Shown: positions 879 to 49,711 of the stretch, piece by piece
Position numbering within the stretch: position 1 is the stretch's first letter
Layout of the letters: each line of letters begins with the position of its first letter
Assembly (NCBI GenBank): GCA_024195585.1
Contig: SWBL01000095.1
Span: 62,001 to 126,000, forward strand
DNA: 64,000 bases
From: Aureobasidium sp. EXF-3400
Lineage: Eukaryota > Ascomycota > Dothideomycetes > Dothideales > Saccotheciaceae
Reading direction: 5' to 3'
Notes under the pieces: generated by a model
Databases searched by the model: none
Told to the model about the DNA's origin: nothing
Seen by the model: only the letters and a program-made list of their open reading frames with translations
Translations under genes and position numbers: made by a program

Positions 879-2619
879 ATGTTCAAACGTTACGCCAAGG
901 ATCTGCCTGAAGAAGTTTTCAACTGGCGTCTTGGCTATGCAGTGCTTGGTATGCTTGGGCTTCCTTGAACAACCATTCCATGACTTGTGGCTAATGCTTA
1001 ACCAGTTTTCGGTCTTCTGGGCACTGCCCGTGGTCTTGACGAAGGTCTCATCGGAACCACTGCCTCTCAAAAATCGTTCAGTAAACAGTTTGGATTGAAG
1101 AACCCACACTTGTCAGCCAATGAGCAAGCCAACCTCCTTTCCAACATCACTTCGATGGTCCAATTGGGATCAATCTTCGGTGCCCTCTTCGCATTCCCCA
1201 TCACCGACCGCATTGGCAGACTTTGGGCTGTCAGAGAACTTTGCCTAGTCTGGGTCACCGGTATTGCCATTTTCCTTGGTGCTGCTGCCCATGGTAGTCT
1301 TGGAATGGTCTACGCCGGTAGATTCATCGCCGGCCTGGGTATTGGGCAGACAACAGTTGTCGCCCCCACATATCTTGCAGAAGTCGCCCCCAAGTCCATT
1401 CGTGGAATGTGTGTCGGTATCTTCTCCGGATCAGTCTACCTTGGCATCATGCTTGGATACTTCGCCTCGTACGGCACGTCGTTGCACATCAGTAACCACA
1501 ACGTCCTTCAATGGGTGATTCCCAACACGCTTCACCTCTACTTCGCTGCCATCATCTTCACCCTAAGCTTCTTCGCCATCGAAAGTCCCCGTTGGCTCAT
1601 CAAGACGAAGCAGCAGGGCAAGGCTGTTGACAACCTCTGCAGATTGCGTGGCCTTGGACAAGACCATGAGGTTGTGCAGGCAGAAATCATTGACATCAAC
1701 AGCCAACTTGAGCGCGAGCAGGAGGCCACTATGGGTGCTTCCAAGGTCGGTCTCCTTCGTGAACTGTTTGTCATGCCTTCAAACAGATACCGTATCTTCT
1801 TGGCTATCTTCGCTCAGCTGCTTGGTCAGTGGAGTGGTGCTGGTTCCATCACCGTCTACGCTCCTCAATACTTTGCGCTGATGGGCACGACTGGAACACA
1901 AGAGAAGCTCCTTGCTACCGGTATTTTCGGTCTTGTTAAGTTCATCAGTGCCCTCATCTGTGCCTTCTTCCTGGTTGACTTCATTGGTCGTAAGCGGTCT
2001 CTGAGCATTGGTATCACGATTCAATTCGTCGCTATGCTGTACATGGCCCTCTTCCTTACCATCGACAACACAATCGGAGACAAGGGCGATGTTCAAAGCG
2101 CCAGTCAGAAGCATGCCGCTCAGGGTGCCATTGCCATGATCTACTTCTCTGGATTCGGTTGGGCCATGGGTAAGTTTCTTATCTTCATCATTGTCAGACC
2201 ATTGCTAATAGTGTTTTCTAGGCTGGAACTCCATTCAGTACCTTATCAATGCAGAGATCTTCCCTCTCCGCTTGCGTGCTATCGGTGGATCCATTGCCAT
2301 GGCATTCCACTTCGTCAATCAATACGGCAACTCCAAGGCTGTACCTGAGATGTTTGTTGGCATGACCACTGCCGGAACCATGTACTTCTTCGCCGCCATC
2401 ACATTGGCGGGTCTCGCATGGGTATACTTCTTCCTGCCCGAGACTAGCGGTCGTTCTTTGGAGAGTTTGGATGCTGTCTTCGAGCTGCCATGGCACAAGA
2501 TCGGAAGATATGGAAGCAAGGTCGCTGTGTCGCCAACCTTGTACGAGAGCGAGAAGGATGGTATGGCAGAGAAGAACCAACAGGTGGAGTATCTGGAGAC
2601 GTCCCGCCAAGGAGCCTGA
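879..2619 (+). CDS. MFS sugar transporter (sugar porter family)
   Basis: Predicted plasma-membrane sugar/H+ symporter, 543 aa, with about 12 membrane helices. Exons 879-948, 1006-2169 and 2222-2619 join in frame across introns of 57 and 52 bp. The sequence shows sugar-porter signatures: ARGLDEGLIG near the first helix, DRIGRLWAV in loop 2-3, ESPRWL before the central loop, QLLGQWSGAGS in the substrate-binding helix, DFIGRKRSL in loop 8-9 and PETSGRSLE after the last helix. The chosen start (MFKRYAKDLPEE) gives the usual short cytosolic N-terminus. The first membrane helix needs exon 1, so a start inside exon 2 would be truncated. The family is known for hexose, pentose, rhamnose and quinate uptake; I cannot tell which substrate from sequence. 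A secreted plant-wall enzyme gene lies 1.2 kb downstream on the same strand, which would suit sugar uptake after wall digestion (inference). Confidence 0.9.
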
Positions 2620-3820
2620 TTTACGAGTTTCTACGAAATATGTTAGTAGCAAGCAATGGATTTGTAATTTCCACTTTCAGATCGTTCTTTCCACAATTCT
2701 TCGCATCGAACGTCCATATCTCTGTCTCATGGACGTAGTTATATCACACTTGCCGACCAGCTCAAATAGATGGGATGCGTCGCGTCTCAATCACAATAGG
2801 ATTGGTCTCTTGTTACTATCGATGTCGCCGAGCCGTGTCTGGTTTGCAGGGGTAGCTCTGCAAACATCGCTGACTCAGCAGACCAGGTGTCCCGCTCGCG
2901 TCCCTGACATGTACTTTTGTCCCTGCACTTTCTGTCTCTTTTTCTGCAACAACGTTGGAACCAACACTGACATGACGGTTTTCGACGATGTGACACCTCT
3001 CTAGCGTCGTGATGTTCCCACACATGTCTCCACGATCTCGAACGTGATTCATGTCTAGCCTTGTCACCCATCGCTTAGCTGTCTATACTCAACTTGAAAC
3101 AATCTACCCTTTTAACCAGCCGATGGCTGCGGGGCCCATCCAGCCGCTTCCATGAAAAATCGATCAATTGATGACATGCGCAGTCCTGCTTACTATCGTT
3201 CCTCGAGAAGCAATGAGATTATCGTTGCACGTATATATTGCGAAGGATCATTTGCATCAAGAGCTATCTCCCGGTAAATGACAACAAAGAAATCCTGGGG
3301 TCAATCTATTAGTCGGACGTACCACGCCTTGCCAGTGACTCGTGACAATGCTTCTCTACAAGTGTCGAATCGAACAAGCCTTGTCGGCCGAGCCAAAGTC
3401 ATACAAGCTTTAGCGATGGCGGTTTCAATGCAAGCCATGGCCAATTCGGCACCTCGAACGACGATATGGAGTGTTCTAAAGCCCATGGATGATTAGCAGA
3501 TCGCCCAGATTGTCGATCTTCGTCTTGCTTGCGAGGTCCTTGAGAATAATAATGGTTTGTGGAGGGGTACGTCCCTGAGCTGCTTCCTGACTTCTGCAGA
3601 TATGATGGCGTAACAGGGATGAGAACAAGGCTCGTAGAAAGCAACCTGGAGCGTATCATCAATACCACGGCCCGTACATCGTATCAACCCTCACGTCACG
3701 AGTGATGAACACGCATAAAATGTGTCGAGCGACTATATAAAGGACCAGGCAAGTTCGTCGTCACTTTCCCTTCCATCCACATCAACACCCTCAAGACCGA
3801 ACATCACTTCGCAGTTCATC
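2620..3820. other. Intergenic, GH45-like gene promoter
   Basis: No gene recognised. It holds the 3' region of the sugar transporter and the promoter of the downstream secreted enzyme. A GCGGGG hexamer near 3129-3134 fits the CreA carbon-repressor consensus (SYGGRG), a weak short match. Confidence 0.4.
3734..3742 (+). promoter_or_regulatory. TATA box of the GH45-like gene
   Basis: TATATAAAG lies 87 bp before the start codon at 3821 and is followed by a pyrimidine-rich leader. A strong TATA box suits an inducible secreted enzyme. Confidence 0.55.
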
Positions 3821-43405: not shown

Positions 43406-43841
43406 TCGCTCAGTGAAAATGCAGAGGACTGCCACGGAGGGTTATTTGCTAAGTCTGCAAGATTAGAGACCTCGAGCGGGTTTGGAATTTTAGAAGCTGG
43501 GCATGGCTTTGTACAGTAGTTCCATCACGTATTGAAGACTTGTGTTCGTCGCGACGCGTATCACTGTTCCATGTTCGTTGGTCACCAACATTGCATACAT
43601 GTGTGTCGCACGCAATTGATGGGTTAAGAACAAGCATGTTGAATCGCCTGCACTTCTTCGCGGGTATATATGGGCAGTAGATGCACGAGAAGTTGAAGGA
43701 AAGAACTCTCGAGGAGGACAGAAATTGGGTTGAATCCGCGGGCTTGGCAAATGTCACAGACAAAGGCACACTCGATCCAAAAACAACTTCATTTCATCAA
43801 GGAAATACATCTCTCCTGATCTCACTGACTCAAAGTCCTTC
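43406..43841. other. Convergent intergenic region
   Basis: About 440 bp between convergent gene ends. Nothing recognised. Confidence 0.4.
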
Positions 43842-44825
43842 CTATGGACTGCTTGCAGGACGCCAGCGATTAGCCAGAGCAGCATTGTGGCCAACCTTGT
43901 TGTGGATGCCGACGAGTACGGTGCCCTTCTTGCCGACACTCACATCTCCAATCTTCTGCTTCACGTCCGACACCTCTTCGACATTACTTATTCCGACGGC
44001 GCCATAGCCCAATTCTGCGATGGTGACGTTTCCGATATCCTGGTTGGTTCGAGTCGCGACCGATGACTTTGCGACGTACTCGCTCACGGTCGCAAATTGA
44101 CTGACCACCATACGGGCTCGAGAGATATCGCGGAGTTCTTCTTCGACTCTTTCTACGTCGTCGATGTCGCCAGTATCTTCCGACTGCTTTTTGACGATCT
44201 GGAGTCGTTCCTCCTCTGGTCGCAGACCCTCGATCACAGCTCTTTGAGCAGCCAGGAGTCTGGTAGCCTCTCTTTCTTGCGTCATCAGCTCGAAGATACG
44301 TTCTGTGGTGCGCGTGTTCTCGACCTGCCCTTGTCTACGAATCGTCAGCGTTTCAAGTCGACCAGAAGACGACTGGTCTACGTACAAGGCACAACAGTTC
44401 AAGGCCAACATCACCGTGTCCTTACAACTACCCAGTTGTACGGATAGCTGAGCCATCTTAGTACTGTGTAAGACGACGTTAATGTTGTCGAGGAAAGACA
44501 GTTTGTCGCCGGACATTGAGTGTCTGGTCCATTGTTTCAAGGTAGACGCGAAGTTCTCGCAAACAGTCTTTAGCGTTTTCAATGCCTGAGATAGTCTGGA
44601 TTCGTCCAACAATTTATGCCAAGTTGTTGTCTGTCCGCCACTATCCAAGATCTTCTCGAGGTGACGAACGACCGACTCGGTATCGTTGAGCTCGGCTCTT
44701 ATCTGACAGACTGCTGTGGGTGCGCTTTCGATCTTGTCGATCAAGTCGATAGTTGCGTGTATCGCGTGGGCAGCAGCGGCGACGATGCCAACCACACCAG
44801 CTACAATGCTGAACGGATCGGTCAT
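43842..44825 (-). CDS. HeLo-like (PigL_N-type) protein with C-terminal amyloid-like repeats
   Basis: Intronless 327-aa protein, inferred executor partner of the adjacent NLR. Residues 1-130 match the fungal STAND/HeLo-like N-terminal domain (PigL_N type): MTDPFSIVAGVVGIVAAAAH followed by amphipathic helices. Related HeLo domains insert into membranes and trigger cell death when multimerised. Residues about 160-255 are predicted coiled coil, Glu/Arg-rich. The C-terminus has two pseudo-repeats 28 residues apart: 264-282 (IGNVTIAELGYGAVGISNV) and 292-310 (IGDVSVGKKGTVLVGIHNK). Both align gaplessly with residues 12-30 of the divergent NLR. This is the two-repeat layout of the HET-s/HET-S prion-forming domain. 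Function is inferred from architecture and neighbour, not shown. Confidence 0.8.
   Translation of the reverse strand: MTDPFSIVAGVVGIVAAAAHAIHATIDLIDKIESAPTAVCQIRAELNDTESVVRHLEKILDSGGQTTTWHKLLDESRLSQALKTLKTVCENFASTLKQWTRHSMSGDKLSFLDNINVVLHSTKMAQLSVQLGSCKDTVMLALNCCALYVDQSSSGRLETLTIRRQGQVENTRTTERIFELMTQEREATRLLAAQRAVIEGLRPEEERLQIVKKQSEDTGDIDDVERVEEELRDISRARMVVSQFATVSEYVAKSSVATRTNQDIGNVTIAELGYGAVGISNVEEVSDVKQKIGDVSVGKKGTVLVGIHNKVGHNAALANRWRPASSP
43893..44036 (-). other. Two amyloid-motif pseudo-repeats in the HeLo-like protein
   Basis: Encodes residues 264-311. The shared pattern with the NLR copy is I-G-[DN]-V-[TS]-[LIV]-x7-[FV]-G-I-x-N. The second repeat also shows V-G-K-x-x-x-V-L-[VI]-G, close to the R2 segment of HET-s. 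Confidence 0.65.
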
Positions 44826-45153
44826 CTGAACGATGAATGCGATAGTTCGTGGGAAGCAGACGCTACACCAGATGCTCGAGCGTGTCGGATTGTTGGCTAC
44901 ACGAGGCTGAAGTTGGGGCGGTATAGCCGTAAGCGCTTGTGGCGTTCATGCAGATTGCTGATCCGTCGCATGTGAGGGGCCTGATCGGCCTCAAAAATAC
45001 ACTCATGCCTCCCAAACTACTTTGATCAGCGTCGCACATCCCAGTACACTGAATTGGCTAGCACTATTGGCGTCATCCTGCCAGTTGCCTTGCAACGCAT
45101 TTCGAATGCTTGTCCATCCATCGTGCGTATAGTCTTTGTCAGTACTGCCAACA
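44826..45153. promoter_or_regulatory. Shared divergent promoter of HeLo-like and NLR genes
   Basis: A 328-bp gap separates the two start codons, so both genes probably share regulatory DNA. Such head-to-head pairing keeps receptor and executor linked in inheritance. Confidence 0.55.
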
Positions 45154-48084
45154 ATGTCGGACCATCCTCGGCCCATAGAGCAATGGATCGGAGATGTGAC
45201 TCTGGGCGACAATTCGACCGCAAATTTTGGCATCTTCAACCATCAAGTTGCTCAAGAACAGCGAAGTGCACAGCAAGCCTTGTTCTTTCGAGAGATGTAC
45301 AATCGACTGCATGAAATCTCAGGTGCATCCCCCGGCACTTGTTCTTGGATCCTCGAAAACCAAACTCTCAGGGATTGGCAGAATGCGCCATTCGGACTCC
45401 TTTGGCTCAAGGGCACGCCTGGTGTTGGCAAATCCACCATCATGAAATACCTGTGGAATCACTTTTCTCTGTATACTAGCTCGGGAACTAGCTCGGAACT
45501 ACGAATCACGGCATCTTTTTTCTGCCATGGCCGAGGAGTTGATGTTCAGAAATCTTCATCTGGTGTTTATCGCTCCTTGCTGCATCAGATCGTCCAGCAA
45601 GTGCCCTCGTTATCGGAAGATCTTGAGGAGAAGTTCCAGAATCATTGCAAACCACGAGGACCACATGGCTCTGCCTGGGATTGGACGGAGTCTGAGCTGA
45701 AGAGTCTCACACAGGACCATCTTCTTAGGTCTTGTTGTGATTCTGAACTGCTTATCCTTGTTGATGCTCTCGACGAGTGCGGAGAGGATAGCGGCCGGGA
45801 GCTCCTTGCTTTCTTCCGAGATCTCGTCACCGCTTCCGAAGCACAGAATGGCCGTGGATTTAAGATATGCGTTTCATCCAGACATTATCCACTTGTCCGA
45901 TCAGATGTGTTATACCAGATCATCGTGGATGGGAAGAACTTAGCAGATATCCGAACATACGTCGCTCGGAAGCTCGACTCTTACTGCAAAAGCGTTCAAA
46001 GATACGATGAATTGTTGTCTTCTATAGCTTCAAGAGCTGGAGAGAACTTCCAGTGGTGCGTTCTGGTGGTTGCAAGGGTTGTCCGATTCCTGGAAAGCAG
46101 GAAGCCTGTGGAACTTATATTGCAGGAAATCCAAGAAACACCTCAGGAACTATTTCAGTTGTATCGCCAGATTGTCCGGTCGTATTTAGACGATACGAGA
46201 GTCAATCTACGGGATAAAAAGCAGTTCTCTGATCTGTTCCAGTGGATGGCTCTTGCGAAACAGCCACTCACAGTCCCTCAGTTAAGATATGCTCTATGGG
46301 TCGATCATTCCGAACTATACGCCTTGCAACAGACACCGTACGTCGATCTGCATGAGGATGGTTCCCCTGGTCCAGATATTGAATACCTGTCTTGCGGACT
46401 CGTAAGAACGATCATGGCTAAAGGATCGGATTACTTCTTGGGGCCTCGCTATAGTCGTCCTGTGGTTGAGTTCATCCATCATTCAGTCCAGGAGTACTTT
46501 GTCAGCGGGCCGGGCATCCGAGAGCTCCGAGGTCCTGATCAAGCGACAACAGCCACACGCATGGCAGCACTCGAAATTGTAAGAACATGCGTCAAGTCTG
46601 TCCTTCTGTCTCAACCACAAGCAGAAGCTCATGCTCGACATCCGCTGCTCGCTTACGCTTTGGACTACATGTTCGACCATGCTCGAACAGCTGAAGAAGG
46701 ACAGCCAGCGCAGGACGATCTTCTGAAGATACTAAACTTTCCGCAAGATAATATTGTAACGAAGATGGCAGAGTTTGATTGTTCTAGGTGGTGGGAGGTG
46801 TACAACTTGAATCCAAGCCTCTTGCACATTGCGGCATATTTCGACATTCCCAATCTTGTCAGCTGCGTACTCGATCTGGCACCTGAAATGAGCATCAACG
46901 CTCGCAGTCCGATAGGAAGAACAGCACTACACGTTTCTGCAGCAAAGGGCAGTCGCAGCGTTATGGATAGACTTCTCGACATCAGTGAACCTTTCACATT
47001 GAAGTCGATGATACCTCGGCGGAGACGGGGATTGAGGGTTCTAGATTTGAACGTCCGCGACGATTTCATGAAACTTACACCAATGATGATAGCTGCTCGA
47101 GTCGGCCATGGCAGGATCGTGGAGCGACTTATTCAGACGCGAAGAGCAGACTTGAACGCAAAAGATCGTGATGGTGTCACGGCATTGCATTCGGCAATCA
47201 AGAATGGGCACATGGATACAGCCAAGGTCTTGTTGCGTAATGGAGCAAACACGCGGGCTAGAGACCGATATGGGGAAACTCCATTGTCACTTGCCTTAAC
47301 GCGAGCGTTGGGAAGACTCGATGCATTCCCAAGTTCCATGGCCATTTTCTGGTCTATTCTTCCTCAAGCCAGGCAAGACTTGTACTCGAGAAGATACTAC
47401 AACGAAAGTCAGTGGCTATTGCCCATACCTCCAGGTCCTGGACCTATTCCCAAACCATCGCCGTTGCAAGAGGGACTCTCAAGTGAAAGAGGCTACGAGT
47501 TCGCACAAGGTCTGCTTGATCGTGGTTTTGACCCTCACACCCCAGACGAATATGGTTGTGTCTGGTTCTTATATCTTAGCGGTAAAGCAAATTCTACGGT
47601 TCTGGATTTACTAAAAGCGCTTCCCGGAGCTAACATAAACTTCAAAGATAGAGATGGCCGAACACTTCTCGCGCGACTAGCGTCCTATCCGTATATTCCT
47701 AACTGGCTGTTTTATGATGTCCTCGAGATCCCTGAAGTGGATTTCCAGACGAGGGACAAGTACGGGAAGACTCTATTAATCATTGCAGCTGAAGAAGGTT
47801 CTTTTGAGGTGTTCAAATTCCTGCTGGCAGATTGCAGATCTGATCCCCAAGCAGTAGACCGGAAAAAGTTGTGTGCGCTAGACTACGCGAGAAAACGGAG
47901 AGATGCTGCTCGGGAAAAACTCACTGTAGCAGAAGCTAAGAAGCTGCGTGAAGAAGGCTTCTACCGCGATCAGTTGAATGAAGCGTCCAGAATTGTCGAG
48001 TTACTGGATGAATACTCCTATCTTGGACGAAGGTCTATCCATTCGCGGCAACTTGCGGCAAGCTCTCGTGGGATTCAACCCTGA
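45154..48084 (+). CDS. NACHT-ankyrin NLR with N-terminal amyloid-like motif
   Basis: Intronless 976-aa NOD-like receptor (STAND ATPase), a probable sensor of non-self or pathogen cues. The first ATG in frame is 45154; the frame is also open upstream. Residues 12-30 (IGDVTLGDNSTANFGIFNH) form a single copy of the motif found twice in the neighbouring HeLo-like protein. The NACHT domain follows, with Walker A GTPGVGKST (87-95) and Walker B LLILVDALDE (199-208). Ankyrin repeats occupy the C-terminal half (GRTALHVSAAKG, DGVTALHSAIKNGHMDTAKV, YGETPLSLAL, YGKTLLIIAAEEGSFEVFKF). No effector domain of its own is present, so it should act through the partner. Ligand-driven oligomerisation would template the partner's amyloid fold (inference by analogy with NWD2 of Podospora). 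Confidence 0.9.
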   Translation: MSDHPRPIEQWIGDVTLGDNSTANFGIFNHQVAQEQRSAQQALFFREMYNRLHEISGASPGTCSWILENQTLRDWQNAPFGLLWLKGTPGVGKSTIMKYLWNHFSLYTSSGTSSELRITASFFCHGRGVDVQKSSSGVYRSLLHQIVQQVPSLSEDLEEKFQNHCKPRGPHGSAWDWTESELKSLTQDHLLRSCCDSELLILVDALDECGEDSGRELLAFFRDLVTASEAQNGRGFKICVSSRHYPLVRSDVLYQIIVDGKNLADIRTYVARKLDSYCKSVQRYDELLSSIASRAGENFQWCVLVVARVVRFLESRKPVELILQEIQETPQELFQLYRQIVRSYLDDTRVNLRDKKQFSDLFQWMALAKQPLTVPQLRYALWVDHSELYALQQTPYVDLHEDGSPGPDIEYLSCGLVRTIMAKGSDYFLGPRYSRPVVEFIHHSVQEYFVSGPGIRELRGPDQATTATRMAALEIVRTCVKSVLLSQPQAEAHARHPLLAYALDYMFDHARTAEEGQPAQDDLLKILNFPQDNIVTKMAEFDCSRWWEVYNLNPSLLHIAAYFDIPNLVSCVLDLAPEMSINARSPIGRTALHVSAAKGSRSVMDRLLDISEPFTLKSMIPRRRRGLRVLDLNVRDDFMKLTPMMIAARVGHGRIVERLIQTRRADLNAKDRDGVTALHSAIKNGHMDTAKVLLRNGANTRARDRYGETPLSLALTRALGRLDAFPSSMAIFWSILPQARQDLYSRRYYNESQWLLPIPPGPGPIPKPSPLQEGLSSERGYEFAQGLLDRGFDPHTPDEYGCVWFLYLSGKANSTVLDLLKALPGANINFKDRDGRTLLARLASYPYIPNWLFYDVLEIPEVDFQTRDKYGKTLLIIAAEEGSFEVFKFLLADCRSDPQAVDRKKLCALDYARKRRDAAREKLTVAEAKKLREEGFYRDQLNEASRIVELLDEYSYLGRRSIHSRQLAASSRGIQP
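45187..45243 (+). other. Receptor copy of the shared amyloid motif
   Basis: Codes for NLR residues 12-30, placed before the NACHT domain as in NWD2-type receptors. Six positions (I, G, V, G, I, N) are identical in all three copies. Confidence 0.65.
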
Positions 48085-48135
48085 GACCTCTCCATTCTTT
48101 TGTTCTTCGCACTCGGACACCGAACCTTGGCACAA

Positions 48136-49711
48136 TTACAGCCTAAGTTTCTTCCACTTCCACAAAGCGCCCCAACCACCAAACACTGATGCGAGCCCTG
48201 TGAATACGATGAGCGGACCATAGCTTGACTGGACTCCGAACCCACTACCAACAATTCCGCCATATTTCTCAGTGCCAGCTTTCAGTAATGGTACACCAAC
48301 CAACCCTCCAGCAACATAACCGATGCCTCTGGCGCCATTCAGCAAGCCATAAACCATACCTGAATCGATTGCCTCGTTTGATTGTCTCGCTTCACTCTCG
48401 AGATCATTCATCAAGCCTCCCCACGTCGCACTATATCCTCCGGCGAAGAAGCCAAAAGTGATGGAAAAGAGAACCAGCGTTGCCAGGTTACCTTGAGTGG
48501 TCAAACCCCAGAGAAGGAAAGCGCTCAATGCCGAGCTCAAGCCAGAAATACAGGTGACAGTTGTGGCTGAGAGTGTGAAATGCTTGTTCTCACTCAAGTA
48601 GCCAAAGAATGAGGATGAAGCAATGCCAGGAATGTTGAATAGTGTGAGCAAGAGCGTTGCAGAAGTCTGAGAGAGCTTGGCGACTTCGCTGGCGTAGGTG
48701 TTGAGGTATGTTTGTGGTATTCCGTAACCGGCGGATTGTAGGATGATGGCTACGCAGTAGATGTAGATGGTTCGATGATGCAGGAAGTGCCAGGGGATTT
48801 TGCGGGTTCTGGGCGTGTCTGTTGTTCTTGCGTCTTGCTCGGCGTCAACTCCTTCGCTCGCTTCTTGTGTTGCTACAGCCAAAGCTGAGGGGTGTGTTGG
48901 AACCAGAAGAATTGTGAATACACTTGTACCAGCGACCAAGACTGCCCAGATCCTGAGCGTGAAGCGAAAACCATGCTGATCCAGAAGCCCGGAGAACAGA
49001 AAAGGACACACTGAACCAACAATATTCTTGCAGGATAGCGTAATCCCATAGGCCAACGCTCGATGACTCGTCTTGTACCACTCACCTAAAGACAAAGTCA
49101 TAGGACTGAAAACCAGAGCCGATCCAAACGCAGCAAAGACGCCTTGCGTAAACACCAGATGCCAGACATTGGTGCTGAAGCTCGACAACAAGTAACTCAC
49201 ACAGGCAATGACAGTACCCAGCAAAGCAGCAGTCTGACGATATCGAGCCCATCGCTTGGTGAAAAGGGCAAAGAGAAAAGGCATGGAGAGGTACATGACT
49301 CCATTGGAAGTCATACCGATTATACCGGTCAAGTCATGGCTTCCTTGTAAAGTCCAGTGTTTGAGGTAGTATTCTTGGAAGATACCGTAGCTCATTGCAA
49401 AGCCTGGAGTATGCTGATGTTAGGCTATGCGCAAGATGTGGATTTTTTGCGAGATACTACAATTGGGCCTAGGCAGTGTTGAGATAACTGTGGGAGAAAG
49501 ACTTACCCCATATAGGAAGTTGCAAAACGGCGGACCCAAGAAGGACGCATGCCATCTTTCTGCTTGAGCCAACTCGTCTGCGTGGACTATGTTCGGTGCT
49601 AGTCAAGCTTTCATCGTGGTCAATGACTTGGAACTCTGTTTCAAGTCGTGAAGCTGAGCTCGGCTGAGCTTGGAGCTCAATCGCTTGACCAGGACCTTCG
49701 CTTTTTGCCAT
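48136..49711 (-). CDS. MFS transporter, monocarboxylate-transporter-like
   Basis: Membrane transporter of 490 aa from ATG 49711. Exons are 49507-49711 and 48136-49403, separated by a 103-bp intron that joins LPIWG to FAMSYGIFQEYY in frame, the typical first-helix region of fungal MCT-like MFS proteins. About 12 helices are visible. The cytosolic N-terminus is polar (SPRRRVGSSRK). A further in-frame ATG lies at 49780, but a TATATA element at about 49803-49810 would put transcription start close to it, so I prefer 49711. Substrate unknown; relatives move monocarboxylates, riboflavin or secondary metabolites. Its end is 51 bp from the end of the convergent NLR gene. Confidence 0.82.

Follow-up and report, generated by a model that had tools for sequence, protein, structure and literature searches.

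A 64,000-nucleotide (nt) stretch of Aureobasidium sp. EXF-3400 DNA (contig SWBL01000095.1, positions 62,001 to 126,000 of the forward strand; hereafter, the window) was analysed, in which two divergent genes, encoding a NOD-like receptor (NLR) and a HeLo-like effector, very probably constitute a two-gene amyloid-signalling cell-death module, as judged from sequence, structural models and analogy. Both proteins carry a segment in the 21-residue register of the HET-s-related amyloid motif (HRAM), present once at the N-terminus of the receptor (r0) and twice at the C-terminus of the effector (r1 and r2). By its sequence features, the pair is a new HRAM-type NLR/HeLo-like system with a few departures from the described subfamilies; of the two Podospora anserina systems, it stands closer to FNT1/HELLF than to NWD2/HET-S. 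The amyloid-signalling reading, already put forward in a preliminary description of this DNA, was supported by the HRAM register, the layout of one plus two motifs, the divergent adjacent genes and the conservation among homologues, and further by a paralogous pair arranged in the same way, a predicted two-rung beta structure and an MLKL-like helical domain. Computation directly shows which genes and domains are present, the identity and register of the motif, its conservation, the predicted strand pattern and the paralogous pair. The main elements are the following:

45154..48084, + strand: NLR receptor gene, 976 amino acids (aa), a single uninterrupted open frame from the ATG at 45154
43842..44825, - strand: HeLo-like effector gene, open reading frame (ORF) of 327 aa, probably 310 aa once spliced
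44826..45153: shared upstream region, 328 bp between the two start codons
45175..45237, + strand: r0, single HRAM-type 21-residue motif, NLR residues 8-28
43986..44048, - strand: r1, first HRAM-type repeat of the effector, ORF residues 260-280 (spliced 243-263)
43902..43964, - strand: r2, second HRAM-type repeat of the effector, ORF residues 288-308 (spliced 271-291)

Motif copies and their conservation

The divergent ORFs lay where the preliminary description had placed them, with the 328 bp that it gave between their ATGs. It had also reported three 19-residue segments aligning without gaps and sharing six identical residues, one in the NLR (starting at residue 12) and two at the effector C-terminus (ORF residues 264 and 292), and this was confirmed; in the spliced protein, the two effector segments would start at 247 and 275. 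In the gapless alignment, r0, r1 and r2 were identical at Q3, I5, G6, V8, G19, I20 and N22, of which Q3 had previously gone unmentioned. The core positions of the HRAM frame were satisfied by all three copies (hydrophobic residues at 5, 8, 10 and 18, followed by G19), while position 16 (A in r0, G in r1 and V in r2) departed from the hydrophobic preference of the frame; the three acidic residues held by r0 were another departure from described HRAMs. The loop between the two effector 21-mers was 7 residues long, for a period of 28, and the charges of r1 and r2 were opposite at positions 4 and 12. Moreover, r0 was nearer to r2 (score of 41) than to r1 (24); in the matrix of these scores, position 1 of r2 was taken as M, the GTG codon having been read as a start, although the residue is V288.

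The likeness was assessed with composition-preserving shuffles of NLR residues 1-60 and of the last 90 effector residues, stretches picked because the preliminary description had named them. The best 19-mer match between them (score of 42) was equalled by none of 5000 shuffles, that between the two repeats (36) by 4 of 5000, and the three-way motif score (104) by none of 3000 (mean of 24, maximum of 72). Furthermore, the pattern comprising Q3, hydrophobic residues at 5, 8, 10 and 18, and G19 occurred in the two window proteins solely at residues 8, 260 and 288, the first of them being the single match in the 976 residues of the NLR. Overall, 17 out of 77,999 21-mers from the ORFs examined, with redundant loci counted, presented this pattern, 12 of them in three pairs and their copies and 5 elsewhere; without the Q3 requirement the number rose to 87, pair members included. 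A second match including Q3 was found at residue 89 of the NLR homologue P0032, presumably by chance.

A search with the effector tail recovered 28 proteins, all from Aureobasidium wherever the source names the organism; this search uses exact 5-residue words, and distant relatives may escape it. The full-coverage relatives were 65-86% identical to the effector when named Aureobasidium melanogenum and 46-61% when named A. pullulans. A search with the receptor N-terminus gave one homologue among 6 candidates and thus did not reveal the NLR partners of the other effectors. Two observations were made on A. pullulans proteins in particular: P0021 has a HeLo-like domain 48-49% identical to those of P0022-P0026 and a tail 92-94% identical to theirs, a contrast suggestive of recombination between domain and motif, and P0029 (65 member sequences) joins histidine-kinase/receiver domains to this effector tail, representing either a fusion or a gene-model error.

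The effector alignment comprised 28 rows, namely the window protein and 27 homologues (25 of them named Aureobasidium), with P0029 and P0031 left out. Q3, G19 and V/I18 were invariant in both repeats, I5 appeared in all rows in r1 and in 27 in r2, and the hydrophobic residues at 5, 8, 10 and 18 together with G19 were maintained in every row and both repeats. K/R was never found at position 15 of either repeat, and position 16 was hydrophobic in only 2 rows in r1 and 9 in r2. Charges were opposed between r1 and r2 at position 4 in 25 rows, at position 12 in 18 and at position 7 in 8, these being related sequences rather than independent ones. Pairwise identities were computed over 24 full rows (276 pairs), the short rows P0012, P0027, P0028 and P0030 having been dropped, and averaged 0.65 for the HeLo-like domain (minimum of 0.41), 0.61 for the region between domain and tail, 0.85 for r1 and 0.80 for r2. 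The motif core thus stays fixed while the putative killer domain diverges. Moreover, in six of these pairs, each made up of sequences named A. pullulans, the HeLo-like identity fell below 0.6 while that of the tail exceeded 0.9; such a contrast may reflect recombination or gene conversion, either between alleles or between copies.

Domains, gene structure and predicted folds

The domains and the probable intron are located as follows:

45334..45882, + strand: NPHP3_N/NACHT-type STAND NTPase domain (Pfam), NLR residues 61-243
47083..47301, + strand: best-scoring ankyrin stretch, NLR residues 644-716
44385..44822, - strand: HeLo-like (PF17111) helical domain, effector residues 2-147
44335..44385, - strand: probable 51-nt intron, GTACGT...CTGAC...TAG (GT..AG, with CTGAC inside)

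Residues 61-243 of the NLR matched NPHP3_N in Pfam (2.1e-32, 113 bits), with the P-loop at about residue 90, while NACHT itself (PF05729) scored 20.5 bits, under its cut-off of 26.7. Three to four ankyrin stretches were found altogether in the C-terminal part, and the protein therefore combines the STAND NTPase and the superstructure-forming repeats by which fungal STAND proteins are recognized. The effector N-terminus had been described as HeLo-type, which held in that it matched the HeLo-like family PF17111 (45.8 bits vs. a cut-off of 27.2), but not for HeLo proper: PF14479 was absent from its Pfam matches, and the gene was not among the 8 places with PF14479 in the genome. The HET-s prion domain (PF11558) gave no effector match at E<=10, and the corresponding genome search was empty, though its control was also silent.

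The effector gene likely carries a 51-nt intron covering ORF residues 147-164, whose removal yields a 310-aa protein with the ..CALQGQ.. junction found in homologue gene models. The intron was graded as likely and not as proven because the stretch of about 17 residues is missing in 23 of the 27 aligned homologue rows (17 rows of 310 aa and 2 of 311) but retained in the other four (P0003, P0004, P0005 and P0015). In the paralogous effector on contig C7, stops interrupt the corresponding place, as an intron would.

A beta-structure prediction had been proposed as a check in the preliminary description; in the AlphaFold2 model of the effector tail, two equal three-strand rungs were obtained, with modest scores. 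The top Foldseek chain for this model was the HET-s amyloid, at a non-significant level, and the HELLF amyloid was found by one of several profiles (E 0.011). A full-length model was made from the homologue P0006 (310 aa), standing in for the window protein, and its N-terminal domain resembled an MLKL-type helical bundle, with Cbl bundles showing similar Z. An MLKL chain was not among the matches listed in the sequence search.

Comparison with known systems and with other pairs in the genome

The accessible part of PMC4518210 describes the HRAM frame as 21 residues with a core of hydrophobic positions 5, 8, 10, 16 and 18 plus G19, Q3 marking the HRAM2 subfamily. According to the same source, loops between repeats span 6 to 18 residues in 154 of 155 cases, an adjacent NLR gene with a single N-terminal motif copy exists in 98 of 155, repeats bear opposite charges at several non-core positions, K/R at 15 is a preference rather than an absolute rule, a hydrophobic residue at 16 is general but not absolute, and r0 of HRAM2 members shows an apparent trend towards likeness with r1. 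The window pair resembles HRAM2 in Q3, the hydrophobic positions 5, 8, 10 and 18, G19, the two repeats with a short loop and the adjacent NLR with r0, and differs from it in lacking K/R15, in mostly lacking a hydrophobic residue at 16 and in having r0 nearer to r2 than to r1 (PMC4518210).

The arrangement had previously been equated with that of NWD2/HET-S, and the likeness holds for the divergent adjacent genes with one motif in the NLR and two in the effector (PMC3321046, PMC4518210). Nevertheless, the window effector matches PF17111 where HET-S carries a HeLo domain, and its NLR has ankyrin repeats in place of the WD repeats of NWD2. The closest match is of the HeLo-like/HELLF kind. FNT1/HELLF shares with the window pair the HeLo-like N-terminal domain, the two C-terminal repeats, Q3, G19 and an adjacent NLR gene with one r0 (PMC7885112, accessible part). 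HELLF repeat 1 also presents G-I after the arch, and the HELLF period is 27, counted by eye, vs. 28 here. In contrast, FNT1 is of the NB-ARC-TPR type, HELLF has Q at position 18 instead of V/I, and prion behaviour has been shown for HELLF, while the Aureobasidium pair is known from sequence and prediction.

Two reasons had been given for a separate motif subclass, namely the 28-residue period and G-I-x-N in place of G-N. Both fall because the period is ordinary, its 7-residue loop lying within the published 6-18 range (PMC4518210) and close to the HELLF spacing, and because G-I already occurs in HELLF repeat 1. A better argument from the alignments is that K/R15 and a hydrophobic residue at 16 are lacking in combination with Q3, and these departures, with mostly G at 16 and r0 nearest to r2, make a separate HRAM subclass possible. 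NACHT families in Dothideomycetes are treated in PMC11412873, the accessible part of which describes no such pair, and no literature joining Aureobasidium, HET-s and amyloid was found in a search that left most subscription papers and supplementary data sets outside.

Five places in the genome exceeded the PF17111 cut-off (the window, C7, C565, C8 and C100), and at each of them an NLR-type frame lies in head-to-head orientation. Two of the other four could be placed in the HRAM register:

G000:C7:84500-92500 (L035), effector 2030-3006 (-), NLR from 3297 (+): paralogous pair whose motifs belong to the same class
G000:C565:3000-12000 (L036): tentative third head-to-head HeLo-like/NLR pair, with r1, r2 and r0 placeable in HRAM register

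The C7 effector and NLR were about 48-50% and 47% identical to those of the window, respectively, with motif identities of 14/21 for r1, 11/21 for r2 and 11/21 for r0. As in the window, its r0 scored higher with r2 (29) than with r1 (16). An in-frame stop separates the NACHT and ankyrin parts of the C7 NLR frame; regarding the flanks of this pair, the left one matched just 71 bases elsewhere (C365) and the right one nothing. The assignment of C565 as a third pair is tentative because its r0, placed by eye in a short first exon, reached scores of just 9 with the r1 and 13 with the r2 of the same pair, whereas its r1 scored 36 with the C7 r0; K/R15 was present in its r0 and r2. The main claim rests on neither the C565 pair nor the 51-nt intron.

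The effector tails of C8 (L052) and C100 (L053) have in common the segment D-N-S-x-Q-[IF]-I-G, and close to the N-terminus of the NLR there is a Q-I-I stretch. Pfam gave no motif family for these two pairs at E<=1; by eye, what they share fell outside the HRAM register, and it is possibly another amyloid motif. On C396 (L054, 6115-7035), a frame of 307 aa from stop to stop also matched the HeLo domain PF14479 strongly, and no NLR frame was recognized by eye in the surrounding 8 kb.

Mechanism, alternatives and presence/absence of the pair

By analogy with NWD2/HET-S and FNT1/HELLF, from which templating, membrane attack and death are drawn, the NLR would sense a ligand through its ankyrin region and oligomerise through its STAND NTPase domain, and the clustered r0 motifs would take up a HET-s-type beta-solenoid rung. 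This rung would template the flexible C-terminal tail of the effector, with r1 and r2 stacking as two rungs, after which the helical domain, similar in its modelled fold to the four-helix executioner domain of MLKL, would expose its hydrophobic N-terminal helix, insert into the membrane and kill the cell.

The shared motif might instead be a non-amyloid docking peptide through which NLR and effector bind without a cross-beta template. Ordinary docking also uses short conserved terminal segments, and the residues conserved beyond the HRAM core (S21-N22 in r1 and H-N..A..W in the tail) hint at further constraints; nevertheless, the two tandem copies in the effector vs. one in the NLR, the HRAM register, the charge-opposed repeats, the predicted stacked rungs and the similarity to the HELLF amyloid make docking alone unlikely. 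Chance or low complexity has the least in its favour and is extremely improbable: G, V and I do abound in the segments, and patterns like HRAM turn up elsewhere at a low rate (the 87 matches without Q3, pair members included), but the three-way score was never reached by shuffling and the arrangement is identical in the C7 pair.

A decaying or inactive remnant, retained by chance in this strain, was also considered in view of the genomic context:

43410..48146: interval holding the pair, 4737 bases between alignable flanks, missing at the matching place on C334

To the left, the neighbouring gene stops at about 43405; to the right, an MFS transporter gene has its 3′ end at 48136. On C334 (L062) the same two flanking genes lie 190 bases apart without the pair, their DNA being 73% and 77% identical; the next gene leftward matches C334 in the opposite orientation, and the region is thus also rearranged. 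The C334 segment may be allelic or else paralogous, and the comparison indicates that the pair was either gained in the window locus or lost on C334. The empty site, the single copy of the pair found in the genome and the in-frame stop in the C7 NLR would all suit a remnant, which is nonetheless very improbable given that both window ORFs are intact and that the motif core is kept in the 28 rows despite divergence elsewhere. As for the genome itself, the assembly has 53.4 Mb in 717 contigs, and PMC9535773 reports that A. melanogenum haploids have about 25 Mb, whereas its diploids, which arose by hybridization, exceed 46 Mb. A distant 3.4-kb stretch of the window has a second copy on C6 (79% identical), which would fit a genome with two diverged gene sets.

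A more specific proposal, and a rather doubtful one, is that an Aureobasidium-restricted HRAM subclass (Q3, G6, G19-I20, an uncharged position 15 and mostly G16) resides on a presence/absence pair whose killer domain diversifies while its repeats remain near-fixed, possibly by recombination, and which would act as a strain-recognition or incompatibility switch, held in single copy in a genome seemingly with two diverged gene sets.

The probable amyloid-signalling module adds to Aureobasidium an apparently undescribed, somewhat unusual pair of a known kind of fungal cell-death system. In its family a single motif comes in numerous natural variants while the killer domain varies independently, which suits questions on the residues that set cross-seeding barriers, and the empty site on C334 would allow genotyping to address whether presence or absence of the pair plays a role in recognition.

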